A stretch of 21,201 bases of DNA from positions 1 to 21,201 of IMG/VR virus record IMGVR_UViG_3300021961_000754; one strand, given 5' to 3'. This stretch comes from a virus. Below the pieces are notes generated by a model that saw only the letters and a list, made by a program, of their open reading frames with translations, was not told the DNA's origin and did not search any database. Position numbers and translations under genes: made by a program. Shown piece after piece: positions 3,885 to 17,749 of the stretch (position 1 is the first letter of the stretch; every line of letters starts with the position of its first letter).

Positions 3885-4619
3885 ATGAAACTCATTACAG
3901 AAGAAATCGAATCAGCGAAAATTCTTGTCGAAGAAAAAGACGGCAAGAAGTCGATGTTTATTGAGGGTATTTTCCTTCAAGGCAATCTAAAGAATCGCAA
4001 TAATAGATTCTATCCTGTTGAAACTCTGGAAAGAGAAGTAACCAGATATTGCGAATCATTTGTCACTAAGGGACGTGCTCTTGGTGAGCTTGGACATCCT
4101 GATGGTCCTACTGTAAACCTAGATAGAGTTTCCCATAAGATTGTAGATCTCCACAGAGAGGGAAACAATTTTATTGGTAAGGCAAAACTTCTTGATACAC
4201 CAATGGGTGTTATCGCAAAGTCTCTCCTTGACGAAGGTGTAACTCTTGGTGTTTCCTCAAGAGGTATGGGTAGTCTTCGTGATACAAACGAAGGATATAA
4301 AGTAGTAGGCGAAGATTTCATGCTTGCAACCGCAGCAGATATCGTTGCTGATCCTTCTGCTCCCGATGCTTTCGTCAATGGAATCATGGAAGGAGTTGAA
4401 TGGGTTTGGGAATCTGGTATTCTCAAAGCACATAAACCATCCATGGTAGAAGAAAATATCCAAGCAGTATTGGAGATTGAAAAATCGGTTGAAGAAGTCC
4501 AGTTACAGCTGGAAGAAAAGATCGAAAAAACTAAGGAAACAATAAATAAATTTGTTGATCAAAAGATTCTAGACGAGAAGAAGTTGGAGATCTTCCAAAA
4601 CTTCTTATCAAATCTCTAA
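3885..4619 (+). CDS. 21: Prohead core protein protease gp21
   Basis: This 244-residue protein is the T4-type prohead serine protease (peptidase family U9/S78-like fold) that cleaves scaffold, core and capsid proteins after head assembly. The candidate catalytic residues are visible: His71 in GELGHPDGP, Ser124 or Ser125 in LGVSSRGMGS and Asp156 in VADPSAPDA. T4 gp21 is about 212 residues; the extra length is a charged, coiled-coil-like C-terminal extension from about residue 180 with many Glu and Lys. It starts 12 bases after the core protein gene with no promoter between them, so the two genes are probably cotranscribed. Substrate consensus in T4 is (L/I)xE, and such a site exists in the capsid protein encoded downstream. 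Confidence 0.93.
   Translation: MKLITEEIESAKILVEEKDGKKSMFIEGIFLQGNLKNRNNRFYPVETLEREVTRYCESFVTKGRALGELGHPDGPTVNLDRVSHKIVDLHREGNNFIGKAKLLDTPMGVIAKSLLDEGVTLGVSSRGMGSLRDTNEGYKVVGEDFMLATAADIVADPSAPDAFVNGIMEGVEWVWESGILKAHKPSMVEENIQAVLEIEKSVEEVQLQLEEKIEKTKETINKFVDQKILDEKKLEIFQNFLSNL
4541..4548 (+). promoter_or_regulatory. Possible extra late promoter inside the gene 21 end
   Basis: AATAAATA occurs within the last part of gene 21, about 125 nt before the gene 22 start. It could add to transcription of genes 22 and 23. Because it is inside a coding region and A/T-rich codons (ATA AAT AAA) can create it by chance, it is only a weak candidate. Confidence 0.25.
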
Positions 4620-13734: not shown

Positions 13735-13754
13735 ACAGTTTCTGAAGTGTCTAT
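13731..13754 (+). other. Hairpin at the gene 46 stop, just before the terminator
   Basis: ATAGACA (13731-13737, including the TAG stop) pairs perfectly with TGTCTAT (13748-13754) around a ten-base loop. It ends three bases before the G run of the terminator. It could protect the 3' end of the transcript or help termination; this is inference. Confidence 0.45.
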
Positions 13755-13757
13755 CGG

Positions 13758-13779
13758 GGGGTCTTCGGACCCCTTTTTT
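13758..13779 (+). terminator. Rho-independent terminator after gene 46
   Basis: GGGGTC (13758-13763) pairs with GACCCC (13768-13773) around a TTCG tetraloop and is followed by six T residues (13774-13779). It shares the 14-base core GGGTC-TTCG-GACCC with the terminator after the capsid gene. It closes the recombination operon and separates it from the CobT-like gene. Confidence 0.92.
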
Positions 13780-13811: not shown

Positions 13812-15968
13812 ATGGTCAACTACGAAGTCAAGGGACAACTGGCAAAGCTTCTTGCTACGGAAGACCTCATCATTGAGAACCGTAAGGTCTCTACGGCGTC
13901 CTTTGACGTGCATCGCAGGATTCTTACCCTACCACTCTGGGAACGTGCCTCTGGGGTCGTATACGACCTTCTGGTGGGTCATGAGGTGGGTCATGCTTTG
14001 TATACCCCAGACCTTGATTGGACTAAAGAATATCCAGAAGTTCCTAAGAACTTTGTGAATGTCTTTGAGGACGTTCGTGTAGAACGCAAGATGAAAAGTA
14101 AGTTTGCTGGACTAGCTAAAACTTTTTATAATGGATACTCAGAACTGTCTGCAGACGATTTTTTCGGAATTGCGGATGAGGATGTCAATGAACTGTCCTT
14201 TGTTGATCGTATCAATCTTCATTTCAAGATTGGTAACTTTATCGATATCAAGTTTTCCGATGAAGAGATCGTCTTTGTCCAACGAGCTTATGATACAAAT
14301 ACCTTTGATGATGTTCTGAAACTGTCTCAAGATGTCTTCAATTATCTGAAGGAAAAATCTCAGCACACGGAATCTGTTCAACCGCAGGAGACTTCTTCTC
14401 AGTCTCAACAGGACAGTGGTGAGAAAGAAACCACTCCTCAAGAGTCTAATTCTGAAGAGAAAGAAGAGTCTCCTAGCAATCAACAAAGTTCTTCCTTTGA
14501 ATCTGATAGTAACGAACAGCCTGAAAAACAAGAAAGCCGTGGTGGAGATGAGTTTGAAACCATCACTGATTCCAATCTTGAAGATAATATTGAGTCTCTC
14601 ATAACCAATAGTAGTTATTATGATCCTACTTATGCGGAGATCCCCCTTCTCGATCTGAACAAGTTTGTAGCTTCAAACTCTGATATTCATCAGTATCTTT
14701 CTAATTTTTATACTGAGTATGAACAAAAGGTTCAAGAAGAGTATGATATTTTCAATCCATATTCGAGCATTGATACCGAATACATTCAGTTTCGCAACTC
14801 AGCTCAAAAGGAAGTAAACTATCTTGTTAAGGAGTTTGAGTGTCGCAAGTCTGCAGATGCGTATGCTCGTGCAACCACGGCTCGTACTGGTGTTCTAGAT
14901 TGCAGCAAACTGCACACATACAAGTACAATGAAGATCTTTTCAGAAAAGTAACTACTATCGCGGATGGTAAAAATCATGGACTGATCTTTGTTCTTGACT
15001 GGTCTGGTTCCATGTCAGATGTTTTCTTGGATACCATCAAGCAACTTTATAATCTTATCTGGTTCTGTCGTAAAGTTAATATTCCTTTCGACGTATATGC
15101 TTTCACTAACGAGTGGAAACGTGGTGGTCATTATAATGGTGAATACCATCAACCAGATCTTGAATATGCTTGTGAACGAAAGGAAGGTGAGTTCCAAATC
15201 GATAATACCTTCTCCATGATGCAGATCCTTACTAGCTCTTGTCGCAAGTCGGATATGGAGAATCAACTTCGGAATGTCTTCCGTCTTGCACACAGTTTGG
15301 ATTCACGTTGTAGGTATCAATGTTTGTATCAGTATCCTTCTCGTCTTGGACTTTCTGGCACTCCTCTGAATGAAGCAATCATCTCTCTGAATAGTATTAT
15401 CCCAGACTTCTTCAAACGTAACAAAATCCAGAAAGTTCAGACTATTGTTCTTACCGATGGCGAGGCTTGTTTCATCAAGATCAATCGTTCTATCTACAAC
15501 GTTGATGGTAGTTATGCTTACATGGGTGTTCGTAGTGTAATTCCTGGTAACACTTATATCCGTGATCGTATTACTGGACAAACATTTAAGATCGGTGACG
15601 ATCACCAAGACACCACCACCGCTTTACTTAACCAGCTTCGTTCACGGTTCCCCAGTATGAATTTTATTGGGATGCGTCTTCTCAACTCTCGTGATACCAA
15701 CAGTTTCATTCGCAGGTACACAAAGTTTGATTATTCTGTTAGTGAAAAACTGATTGAAACTTATCGTAAAACCAAGTCCTTTGTTCTGAATGATGTTGGA
15801 TATCATGCTTACTTCGGACTTTCCTCTTCCGCTCTTTCCAACGATGTTGAATTTGAGGTGAAGGAGGATGCAACCAAGAGTCAGATCAAGTCTGCTTTTG
15901 CTAAGAGCTTGAAAGGCAAGAAGATGAACAAAAAAATCCTTGGGGAGTTCATCAATTTTATCGCTTGA
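13812..15968 (+). CDS. CobT-like VWA-domain protein with HEXXH motif
   Basis: This 718-residue protein resembles the VWA subunit of AAA+/VWA chaperone pairs such as CobT/CobS and NorD/NorQ. The N-terminal domain has GHEVGH (His57, Glu58, His61) followed 25 residues later by NVFEDVRVE (Glu86), a gluzincin-like metal site. Residues about 183-245 form a Ser/Gln/Glu-rich linker. The C-terminal VWA domain has an intact MIDAS: DWSGS (Asp396, Ser398, Ser400), Thr517 in SGTPL and Asp549 in LTDGE. The AAA+ partner is the next gene. CobT in cobalamin synthesis binds cobaltochelatase, but no CobN-like subunit is here, so the real client is unknown. Arginine codons are almost all CGN, unlike gene 46. No strong ribosome-binding site precedes the ATG. 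Confidence 0.78.
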   Translation: MVNYEVKGQLAKLLATEDLIIENRKVSTASFDVHRRILTLPLWERASGVVYDLLVGHEVGHALYTPDLDWTKEYPEVPKNFVNVFEDVRVERKMKSKFAGLAKTFYNGYSELSADDFFGIADEDVNELSFVDRINLHFKIGNFIDIKFSDEEIVFVQRAYDTNTFDDVLKLSQDVFNYLKEKSQHTESVQPQETSSQSQQDSGEKETTPQESNSEEKEESPSNQQSSSFESDSNEQPEKQESRGGDEFETITDSNLEDNIESLITNSSYYDPTYAEIPLLDLNKFVASNSDIHQYLSNFYTEYEQKVQEEYDIFNPYSSIDTEYIQFRNSAQKEVNYLVKEFECRKSADAYARATTARTGVLDCSKLHTYKYNEDLFRKVTTIADGKNHGLIFVLDWSGSMSDVFLDTIKQLYNLIWFCRKVNIPFDVYAFTNEWKRGGHYNGEYHQPDLEYACERKEGEFQIDNTFSMMQILTSSCRKSDMENQLRNVFRLAHSLDSRCRYQCLYQYPSRLGLSGTPLNEAIISLNSIIPDFFKRNKIQKVQTIVLTDGEACFIKINRSIYNVDGSYAYMGVRSVIPGNTYIRDRITGQTFKIGDDHQDTTTALLNQLRSRFPSMNFIGMRLLNSRDTNSFIRRYTKFDYSVSEKLIETYRKTKSFVLNDVGYHAYFGLSSSALSNDVEFEVKEDATKSQIKSAFAKSLKGKKMNKKILGEFINFIA

Positions 15969-15969
15969 G

Positions 15970-16013
15970 ACGGTCTTGAAAGTGGCACAAACCCCGTGCC
16001 ACAGTCCGTTTTT
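15970..16013 (+). terminator. Probable terminator between the CobT-like and CobS-like genes
   Basis: GTGGCAC (15982-15988) pairs with GTGCCAC (15996-16002) around AAACCCC. Outer bases ACGG (15970-15973) and CCGT (16006-16009) can extend the stem with an internal loop, and a T run ends at 16013. It would reduce read-through into the CobS-like gene, which seems to have its own promoter. Confidence 0.65.
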
Positions 16014-16047: not shown

Positions 16048-17142
16048 ATGACCACCCGCGTGAACACTGAGTCCCTGATCGATTCCATCCGTGATCTTTA
16101 CGGAAATGTTCTTACCGCTTCTGATGTACGTGCTTTCTGTGCTTCTCGTGGTATTTCGTACCCTACTGTGACTAAAAAACTAGAAAACTATAAGACCTCT
16201 CGTGGTAATTGGGATCTGACGGTGCAAGAAGCTCGTCAACAACTCGAAAAAACAGTAACCTCTCCTTCCGTAGTTCCACCTATCGAACAAAATCTTATCC
16301 CCGAAAAAGATGATACCTTCGTCCAGTTTGGTAATTTTAAGGATATTAAGCGTATTGTTCAGTCCCGTCTTTTTTATCCGACATTTGTTACGGGTCTTTC
16401 TGGTAATGGCAAAACGTTCTCGGTTGAACAAGCCTGTGCTAAGTTGGGTCGGGAGCTGATCCGTGTTAACATTACGATTGAGACTGATGAAGATGATCTC
16501 ATCGGCGGATTCCGCCTGGTCAATGGTGAAACTGTTTGGCATAATGGTCCAGTCGTCGAAGCCTTGGAGCGCGGTGCGATTCTTCTGCTTGACGAAATTG
16601 ACCTGGCTTCCAACAAAATTCTTTGCCTTCAGTCCATCCTTGAAGGTAAGGGAGTCTTCCTCAAGAAGATCGGTCGGTTTGTGAAACCTTCCGCTGGGTT
16701 TAATGTGTTTGCAACTGCCAACACCAAGGGTAAAGGTTCTGACGATGGTCGTTTCATTGGAACTAATGTTCTGAACGAAGCATTCCTTGAGCGTTTCCCT
16801 GTGACCTTTGAACAGTCCTATCCTAATCCTGCGACTGAACAGAAAATCCTAGAGGGCATTTCTCTGGATCTTGGTGTGGAAGATCGTGACTTCTGTAAGC
16901 GTTTGGTGGACTGGGCAGACATTATCCGCAAAACCTTCTATGATGGCGGTGTAGAAGAGATTATTTCTACCCGACGTTTGGTTCACATCATTCGTGCTTT
17001 CTCTATCTGGAAAGAAAAGTCTAAAGCAATTCAAGTTTGCATTAATCGTTTTGATGATGAGACCAAACAAGCCTTCCTTGATCTCTATGACAAGGTTGAT
17101 GCAGATGTAAATTTCGGTGAAAACAATGGATCTGTGGAGTGA
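16048..17142 (+). CDS. cobS: CobS/MoxR-like AAA+ ATPase
   Basis: This 364-residue ATPase is the protein usually annotated CobS in T4-like cyanophages. Motifs: Walker A GLSGNGKT (116-123), Walker B ILLLDEID (178-185), sensor 1 in ATANT (Asn225) and arginine finger region FLERFPV (Arg249). The segment GGFRLVNGETVWHNGPVVEA (153-172) is typical of the MoxR/CobS clade. Residues 1-60 form a separate small domain that may be helix-turn-helix-like (SDVRAFCASRGISYPTV). In bacteria CobS drives cobalt insertion with CobT and CobN. Here only the AAA+ and VWA partners are present, side by side, so the pair may remodel another complex. Arginine is encoded only by CGN codons. The end overlaps the bilin reductase gene by 17 bases. 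Confidence 0.85.
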   Translation: MTTRVNTESLIDSIRDLYGNVLTASDVRAFCASRGISYPTVTKKLENYKTSRGNWDLTVQEARQQLEKTVTSPSVVPPIEQNLIPEKDDTFVQFGNFKDIKRIVQSRLFYPTFVTGLSGNGKTFSVEQACAKLGRELIRVNITIETDEDDLIGGFRLVNGETVWHNGPVVEALERGAILLLDEIDLASNKILCLQSILEGKGVFLKKIGRFVKPSAGFNVFATANTKGKGSDDGRFIGTNVLNEAFLERFPVTFEQSYPNPATEQKILEGISLDLGVEDRDFCKRLVDWADIIRKTFYDGGVEEIISTRRLVHIIRAFSIWKEKSKAIQVCINRFDDETKQAFLDLYDKVDADVNFGENNGSVE

Positions 17143-17749
17143 GTATAAAAAAGTTCTCTGGGAAATCTTTCCCGATCTAGAGAACATCTGTGACTGGGCG
17201 GACTGGGAGGAAAAAGGAACCTCCCTTTCCGCCAAGATCTACAACAGTGAAACCATCCTTAAATCTAGGGAGGTTGAGATCTGGGATGAGAAGTCATGTA
17301 TTTACAACAACATCATTTATCCAAGAACAGGAGAGAACCTTCCCTGTTTTGGCATGGATTTGATGGGTTTCTTTGACAAGAAAGTTATCCTTGTATTTGA
17401 CTTCCAACACCCTGTAGAGAATTATCTATTCTCGCACCCAGATCTTCCTAAAGCTGAGGGCAATTTCCGATTCTTTGAACCAGGAAATCATTTCTCAGAA
17501 AACATTTACGTTGCTAAATGTACTATGTCTGAAGTCAATGAACATCTTGATATGTTCAAAAAATACTTGACTGTTTACCGAGACATGGTAGAATGTTTAA
17601 AACCAAACGGCTTTGATGCCCGTTCTACATACGGTGATTTTGACAGGTACATGAAGAAACTTGACCCTGTAGGCGGTTATCTTTCCAATAAGTTTGGCAA
17701 AGAAAAAGCCGAATCACTTGTAAACGATTTCTTATTCTGTTATGGTTAA
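17126..17749 (+). CDS. pebS: Ferredoxin-dependent bilin reductase, phycoerythrobilin synthase PebS-type
   Basis: This 207-residue protein closely resembles PebS of cyanophage P-SSM2 as I remember it. PebS reduces biliverdin IX-alpha in two ferredoxin-dependent steps to phycoerythrobilin, the chromophore of phycoerythrin. Shared stretches include LPCFGMDLMGF, KKVILVFDFQHP, FRFFEPGNHFS and LDPVGGYLSNKFG, ending VNDFLF. The two catalytic aspartates of PebS (Asp105 and Asp206 there) correspond to Asp78 and Asp180 here. It lacks about 25 N-terminal residues of the P-SSM2 protein. The ATG at 17126 has GGTGA at 17116-17120 before it; an in-frame GTG at 17117 is an alternative. It overlaps the CobS-like gene. 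No heme oxygenase gene (ho1), its usual phage neighbour, is present in the window. PcyA or PcyX activity cannot be excluded without testing. Confidence 0.9.
   Translation: MDLWSEYKKVLWEIFPDLENICDWADWEEKGTSLSAKIYNSETILKSREVEIWDEKSCIYNNIIYPRTGENLPCFGMDLMGFFDKKVILVFDFQHPVENYLFSHPDLPKAEGNFRFFEPGNHFSENIYVAKCTMSEVNEHLDMFKKYLTVYRDMVECLKPNGFDARSTYGDFDRYMKKLDPVGGYLSNKFGKEKAESLVNDFLFCYG

Follow-up and report, generated by a model that had tools for sequence, protein, structure and literature searches.

A putative metallopeptidase fused to a VWA domain beside the cyanophage 'cobS' ATPase gene

In T4-like cyanophages, the gene known as cobS belongs to a set of 25 core genes (PMC3037559), and it is cited as an auxiliary metabolic gene with a cobalamin-raising effect, an idea taken up again in PMC2984593. 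On the nature of the gene beside it, two published statements stand opposed. In 2021, a MoxR-type ATPase was described in group 2.2 jumbo phages beside a vWA protein that carries an N-terminal metallopeptidase, and a role in virion assembly was proposed (PMC7824862). That pair, a metallopeptidase-vWA fusion next to a MoxR-type ATPase, has the same architecture as the one considered here; the system was presented there as one of jumbo phages and virion assembly, and the passages concerned do not mention cyanophage CobS/CobT in that connection. In the same year, the label 'peptidase' was called a mistake, and the cyanophage 'peptidase' was equated with CobT (PMC8651126).

Most cyanophage GenBank records, as well as PHROG 459, already carry the name 'peptidase', the neighbouring cobS alone being normally described as a gene of cobalamin/porphyrin biosynthesis; an earlier note on this DNA, which held that a protease-like system departs from the usual description, is not supported in that respect. 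A search of the literature found no published experimental test behind the 'peptidase' name, and no paper that connects CobT to HEXXH or to SXT elements. If the partner of CobS is an intact metalloprotease, the cobalamin reading, together with the vitamin-B12 calls made in many virome surveys, needs revision, and a single residue (E58) provides a simple handle on the question.

The locus analysed here lies in a window of 21,201 nucleotides, positions 1 to 21,201 of the IMG/VR virus record IMGVR_UViG_3300021961_000754. We give a probability of roughly 70% to the reading, drawn from sequence comparison and structural models, that its 'CobT' gene encodes a zincin-type (HEXXH plus Glu/Asp) metallopeptidase joined in one chain to a VWA adaptor of midasin/NorD type, and paired with an adjacent MoxR/NorQ-type AAA+ ATPase. 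Such a pair would more likely cut or remodel proteins than act as an enzyme of vitamin B12. The features of the locus are as follows.

13812..15968, + strand: peptidase/'CobT' reading frame, 718 aa, with an N-terminal zincin-like metallopeptidase domain, an acidic linker and a C-terminal VWA domain
13812..14361, + strand: N-domain, residues 1-183, modelled by AlphaFold2 as three strands, HEXXH helix, Glu helix and helical remainder
13980..13994, + strand: HEVGH, residues 57-61, with two predicted zinc His ligands and the putative catalytic Glu58; invariant
14058..14084, + strand: N83-V-F-E86-D87-V-R89-V-E91 helix, with E86 or D87 as predicted third zinc ligand
14385..14543, + strand: acidic linker, residues about 192-244, modelled at low confidence (pLDDT below 50)
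14997..15458, + strand: VWA MIDAS motif, D396-x-S398-x-S400 (14997-15011), T517 (15360-15362) and D549 (15456-15458)
16048..17142, + strand: partner AAA+ ATPase 'CobS' (phrog_249), MoxR/NorQ type, Walker A GLSGNGKT, Walker B LLLDEID
3885-4619: T4-type head maturation protease (phrog_207, 9.4e-84)

The HEXXH motif and the fold of the N-domain

The 718-residue product matches phrog_459 ('peptidase') over its full length in a PHROG search (E = 7e-264). Its HEVGH sequence is the sole HEXXH among the window's open frames of at least 60 codons; the composition of the protein leads to an expected count of 0.019, and shuffled versions of it contain HEXXH in 1.8% of cases, and HEXXH with a Glu 18-35 residues on in 1.4%. 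A chance origin is excluded because the motif is conserved. Among 80 viral loci recruited with other peptides, 78 of which (the window's own included) align over the N-domain, H57, E58, H61 and E86 are invariant (78/78), and synonymous codon change is seen at each of these positions (H57 CAT/CAC, E58 GAA/GAG, H61 CAC/CAT, E86 GAA/GAG). The motif is also found in nine of nine named phages, which comprise cyanophages, Stenotrophomonas DLP6, Ochrobactrum OC and a Rhizobium phage. In a broader alignment of 109 N-domains, in which identity falls to about 15%, invariance is confined to the nine columns P41, H57, E58, H61, N83, E86, D87, E91 and G100; that set was partly recruited with the motif itself, and the weight rests on the 78-sequence and nine-phage sets. 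The earlier note, which had located HEVGH at residues 57-61 and Glu86 25 residues later, was right in all its coordinates, and the four residues that it singled out for a conservation check are the same in 78/78 viral sequences and 109/109 N-domains. The E86 codon occupies 14067-14069, 25 residues past H61; among homologues this interval is mostly 24, with 22, 23 and 25 also represented. A match in Caulobacter phage J4 proved to be a repeat protein and was rejected as a chance match, and the Ochrobactrum form, used as a query, recovered no relatives in viral contigs.

An AlphaFold2 model computed from the N-domain alignment, without zinc (pLDDT 91, pTM 0.86), displays a helix at residues 8-16, strands at 20-24, 30-32 and 37-41, a helix at 48-64 that carries HEXXH, and a following helix at 79-97 that carries N83, E86, D87 and E91, an arrangement of the zincin-like kind. 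Of the two outcomes that the earlier note named as counting against it, poor conservation of the four residues and a fold that separates them, neither was observed. The best ten PDB matches returned by Foldseek comprise ArdC, abylysin, selecase, jannalysin, a putative Zn-dependent peptidase and PprI, to which the VIA-align matches add ZMPSTE24, BlaR1, IrrE and the SPRTN-type protease 6mdw. Although these matches score moderately (Foldseek E of 0.028 at best, Z of at most 6.9), the top of both PDB match lists consists almost entirely of HEXXH proteins, which is a specific signal. A library of viral protein models places the same domain in 'CobT' proteins of haloarchaeal viruses and actinophages, including a 355-aa protein of HHTV-2. 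The HHTV-2 cobT has been described as split, with its vWA part in a separate reading frame (PMC8651126), which fits a self-standing N-domain.

Sequence searches of the PDB yielded nothing usable, whether the query was the protein or either of the two alignments. The window protein has no match to PF13203 (DUF2201_N putative metallopeptidase) at E up to 10, and that family is absent from the 25 families listed for the 109 N-domains, which leaves room for remote kinship. The CobT structure 9uka, which may not resolve the N-domain, does not appear among the structural matches of this domain.

Taking conservation and prediction together, the N-domain is very probably a zincin domain. Of the zinc site with two His and one Glu that had been proposed earlier, E86 makes a good third-ligand candidate, invariant on the next helix; it does not stand alone, D87 being an equally conserved candidate, and the E86 position seems to be preserved in canonical CobT, which lacks H57, E58 and H61. 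Conserved HEXXH motifs can also occur in enzymes that are not peptidases or at structural zinc sites, and the domain could in principle bind metal without proteolysis, its motif forming a structural zinc site or a peptide-binding platform for an AAA+/VWA chaperone. Canonical CobT offers a precedent, as a distantly related domain persists there without catalytic residues; however, E58 is invariant along with both histidines, where a structural site would not need a catalytic Glu, and most of the fold neighbours are active peptidases. We consider a non-proteolytic domain to be quite unlikely, and the N-domain probably a working peptidase, because its catalytic Glu is intact.

The VWA domain, its ATPase partner and the comparison with CobS/CobT

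The MIDAS site of the VWA domain is intact: D396, S398, S400 and D549 are invariant in the alignment, and T517 is present in at least 90% of it. The best structural matches of this domain are the MIDAS domain of Rea1/midasin (Z 13.8-16.7) and NorQ-bound NorD (Z 15.5). The ATPase encoded at 16048-17142, with intact Walker motifs, matches PF07728 (AAA_5) at 5.1e-18 and PF08406 (CbbQ_C) at 2.3e-4, and the locus displays the hallmark of MoxR/NorQ systems with VWA partners, an AAA_5/CbbQ_C ATPase that adjoins a VWA protein with a MIDAS DxSxS..T..D. The AAA+ partner that the earlier note had assigned to the CobT-like protein is a regular neighbour: of 115 viral loci of the cyanophage type that offer at least 1.5 kb of sequence, 105 have an AAA+ gene downstream, as do 27/27 loci of the Rhizobium-phage type, and each of the seven cellular loci examined with Pfam has an AAA_5 ATPase on the upstream side. 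From this pairing, and by analogy with the MoxR-VWA precedent, gating of the peptidase by the ATPase is fairly likely.

Terminator-like hairpins lie before the peptidase gene (13754-13775) and between it and cobS (15982-16002), in numbers near those of shuffled sequences; a TATAAT-type box follows the second, and the two genes may be transcribed separately. Directly past cobS, at 17117-17749, is a gene for a bilin-type ferredoxin oxidoreductase (phrog_7278, 8.4e-64); the arrangement differs in P-SSM4, where the peptidase gene and cobS have pcyA between them.

According to PMC8651126 and the auxiliary-gene literature, the two proteins would be a genuine CobST, which together with host CobN would form a cobalt chelatase and raise cobalamin or pseudocobalamin during infection. 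Comparison with the canonical proteins bears on this directly. The window protein matches neither CobT model, with no hit to TIGR01651 at E up to 1 (NCBIfam) or to PF06213 and PF11775 at E up to 10 (Pfam), and its partner scores 66.4 bits against the CobS model TIGR01650, below the cut-off of 558.55. HEXXH occurs in 0/30 canonical CobT N-domains (loci L253-L282, drawn from the class to which a Rhodobacteraceae genome belongs), and a chelatase role leaves the invariant motif of the phage proteins unexplained. Read at the level of motifs, canonical CobT has G-x-x-D-x-x-A-L at the place of HEXXH and E-x-A-R-x-E at the place of ED-x-R-x-E, the latter kept at the presumed Glu helix in 13 of 13 matched sequences. 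The equivalence of these positions is an inference with a weak formal alignment, as cyanophage and canonical N-domains, compared profile to profile, align over no more than 26 columns, those about the E-x-x-R-x-E helix, at a probability of 2.5%, and an HMM of canonical CobT N-domains scores HEXXH proteins only marginally. A Glu kept in CobT without HEXXH suggests either a structural role for that residue or decay from a protease ancestor.

Distant homology to CobT nevertheless speaks for the chelatase reading. PF06213 is matched by 25 of the 109 N-domains, the best cellular HEXXH protein reaching 1.7e-11, and Rhizobium-phage forms match CobT_C at 6.5e-34; judged by these profile matches, distant kinship is real in the broader family, the chelatase having either lost the active site or never acquired it. 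For the cyanophage form itself the link is weak, because it rests on cellular intermediates that match PF06213. Genomes of the host family have CobT in 0/61 and a CobN-type match in 59/61 (49 of these matches exceed the CobN cut-off, and some of the 59 may be the related ChlH), so that a partner for CobST would be available; by the same counts, the hosts keep CobN without CobT, and hence need no CobST. Homologues with the same motif lie in plasmid recombination modules, described below, with no cobalamin genes near them. A true CobST thus appears very unlikely, and the cobalamin names of both genes are probably wrong. Because canonical CobT lacks HEXXH in all 30 cases, because the CobT and CobS cut-offs are missed, and because same-motif pairs occur in recombination modules, the present evidence, which consists of sequences and models, favours the peptidase label over CobT.

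Gene neighbourhood and plasmid relatives

The window gene lies between gp47/gp46 (an SbcCD-like nuclease) and gp45 (the clamp), away from the structural genes; upstream of its counterparts are a gp47-gp46-like pair in the Ochrobactrum phage, and UvsX with a primase/helicase in DLP6. Relatives of a cellular form were found on 1128 plasmid records, 930 of which are typed as conjugative. Modules on these plasmids read ATPase-ssb-bet-exo-DUF3150-VWA (IncC), ATPase-bet-exo-DUF3150-VWA (pAQU1) and ssb-recT-exo-MoxR-DUF3150-VWA (pSC-KP443-1), and HEXXH together with N-x-x-ED-x-RIE is present in all four plasmid VWA proteins examined (loci L283, L284, L285 and L286). Chromosomal loci that resemble integrated elements contain a YqaJ exonuclease and a Toprim primase, or the order ssb-recT-AAA+-VWA-PD(D/E)XK. 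The metallopeptidase reading is not new; its family is now extended to plasmid recombination modules, and the presence of the same motif in the IncC-type VWA protein means that the answer would reach beyond phages.

The four plasmid VWA proteins stand with a DUF3150 protein, and three of the four with bet or recT plus exo. The DUF3150 protein recurs upstream of cellular as well as plasmid HEXXH-VWA proteins (for example at L230:3872-4876 and L235:1647-2960), which suggests a third component of the system, seemingly absent from cyanophages. PADLOC returned no anti-phage defence match. The first 60-90 residues of the window's ATPase, ahead of its AAA+ domain (16048-16250), may hold a helix-turn-helix (sub-threshold DUF2089-HTH, E 0.022), which, if it binds DNA, would fit a role in DNA metabolism.

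A role for the pair in DNA replication or recombination is, from gene neighbourhood, a tentative lead; it is only a lead because neighbourhood is weak evidence in phage genomes, where DNA genes abound. Clearing of DNA-protein crosslinks or nucleoprotein is one guess within it. A different function was envisaged for the jumbo-phage system, in which, according to PMC7824862, MoxR-VWA would remodel structural proteins during virion assembly and the zincin would trim them; the same text cites the tail assembly of an archaeal virus as needing a MoxR-vWA system, and its authors already judged the fused N-domain to be a metallopeptidase. However, the phage in the window already has a T4-type head maturation protease; in the window, DLP6 and the Ochrobactrum phage, the pair sits among DNA genes rather than structural ones; and close architectural homologues belong to conjugative plasmids, elements that form no virions. 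The gene is not reported in the virion proteomics literature that was searched, an absence that is not evidence. An assembly role appears unlikely. It is conceivable, if rather doubtful, that phages, conjugative plasmids and integrated elements all carry 'CobST' pairs of a single family, ATP-driven metalloproteases for DNA recombination or replication, for example in SPRTN/Wss1-like protein clearing, with canonical CobT as a descendant whose N-domain active site was lost; were this true, cobS, counted as a 'B12' gene of the cyanophage core, would be unrelated to that vitamin.

Proposed mechanism and known systems

Under the metallopeptidase reading, the AAA+ ring would engage or remodel a target protein bound by way of the VWA MIDAS, and its cleavage would fall to the N-domain, with zinc on H57, H61 and E86 (or D87) and with E58 as the general base. 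The targets might, more tentatively, lie within phage DNA replication or recombination, and are placed there because homologous pairs recur in recombination modules of plasmids and integrated elements. The interpretation first put forward from the sequence, a peptidase gated by its AAA+ partner, is in sum partly supported.

Several described systems resemble parts of this one. The cyanophage 'peptidase' of T4-GC 146 and PHROG 459 is the same family as the window protein. Minigluzincins (abylysin, selecase), ArdC, SPRTN/Wss1 and IrrE present, like the modelled N-domain, a HEXXH helix on a small sheet and an acidic ligand region on the next helix; the matched entries have 9-15% sequence identity to it, and none of them is described as a VWA/AAA+ partner. 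NorQ/NorD and Rea1/midasin share with the window pair a MIDAS-bearing VWA fold (Z 13-17) and an AAA+ motor; relative to NorD and midasin, in a comparison that covered VWA domains only, the predicted zincin domain is an extra module. The cobaltochelatase subunits CobS and CobT form an AAA+ and VWA pair as in the window, with an N-domain (PF06213) that is distantly related in the broader family, but canonical CobT is without the HEXXH that is invariant in the window protein and its relatives, and the window pair falls below the CobT and CobS cut-offs.
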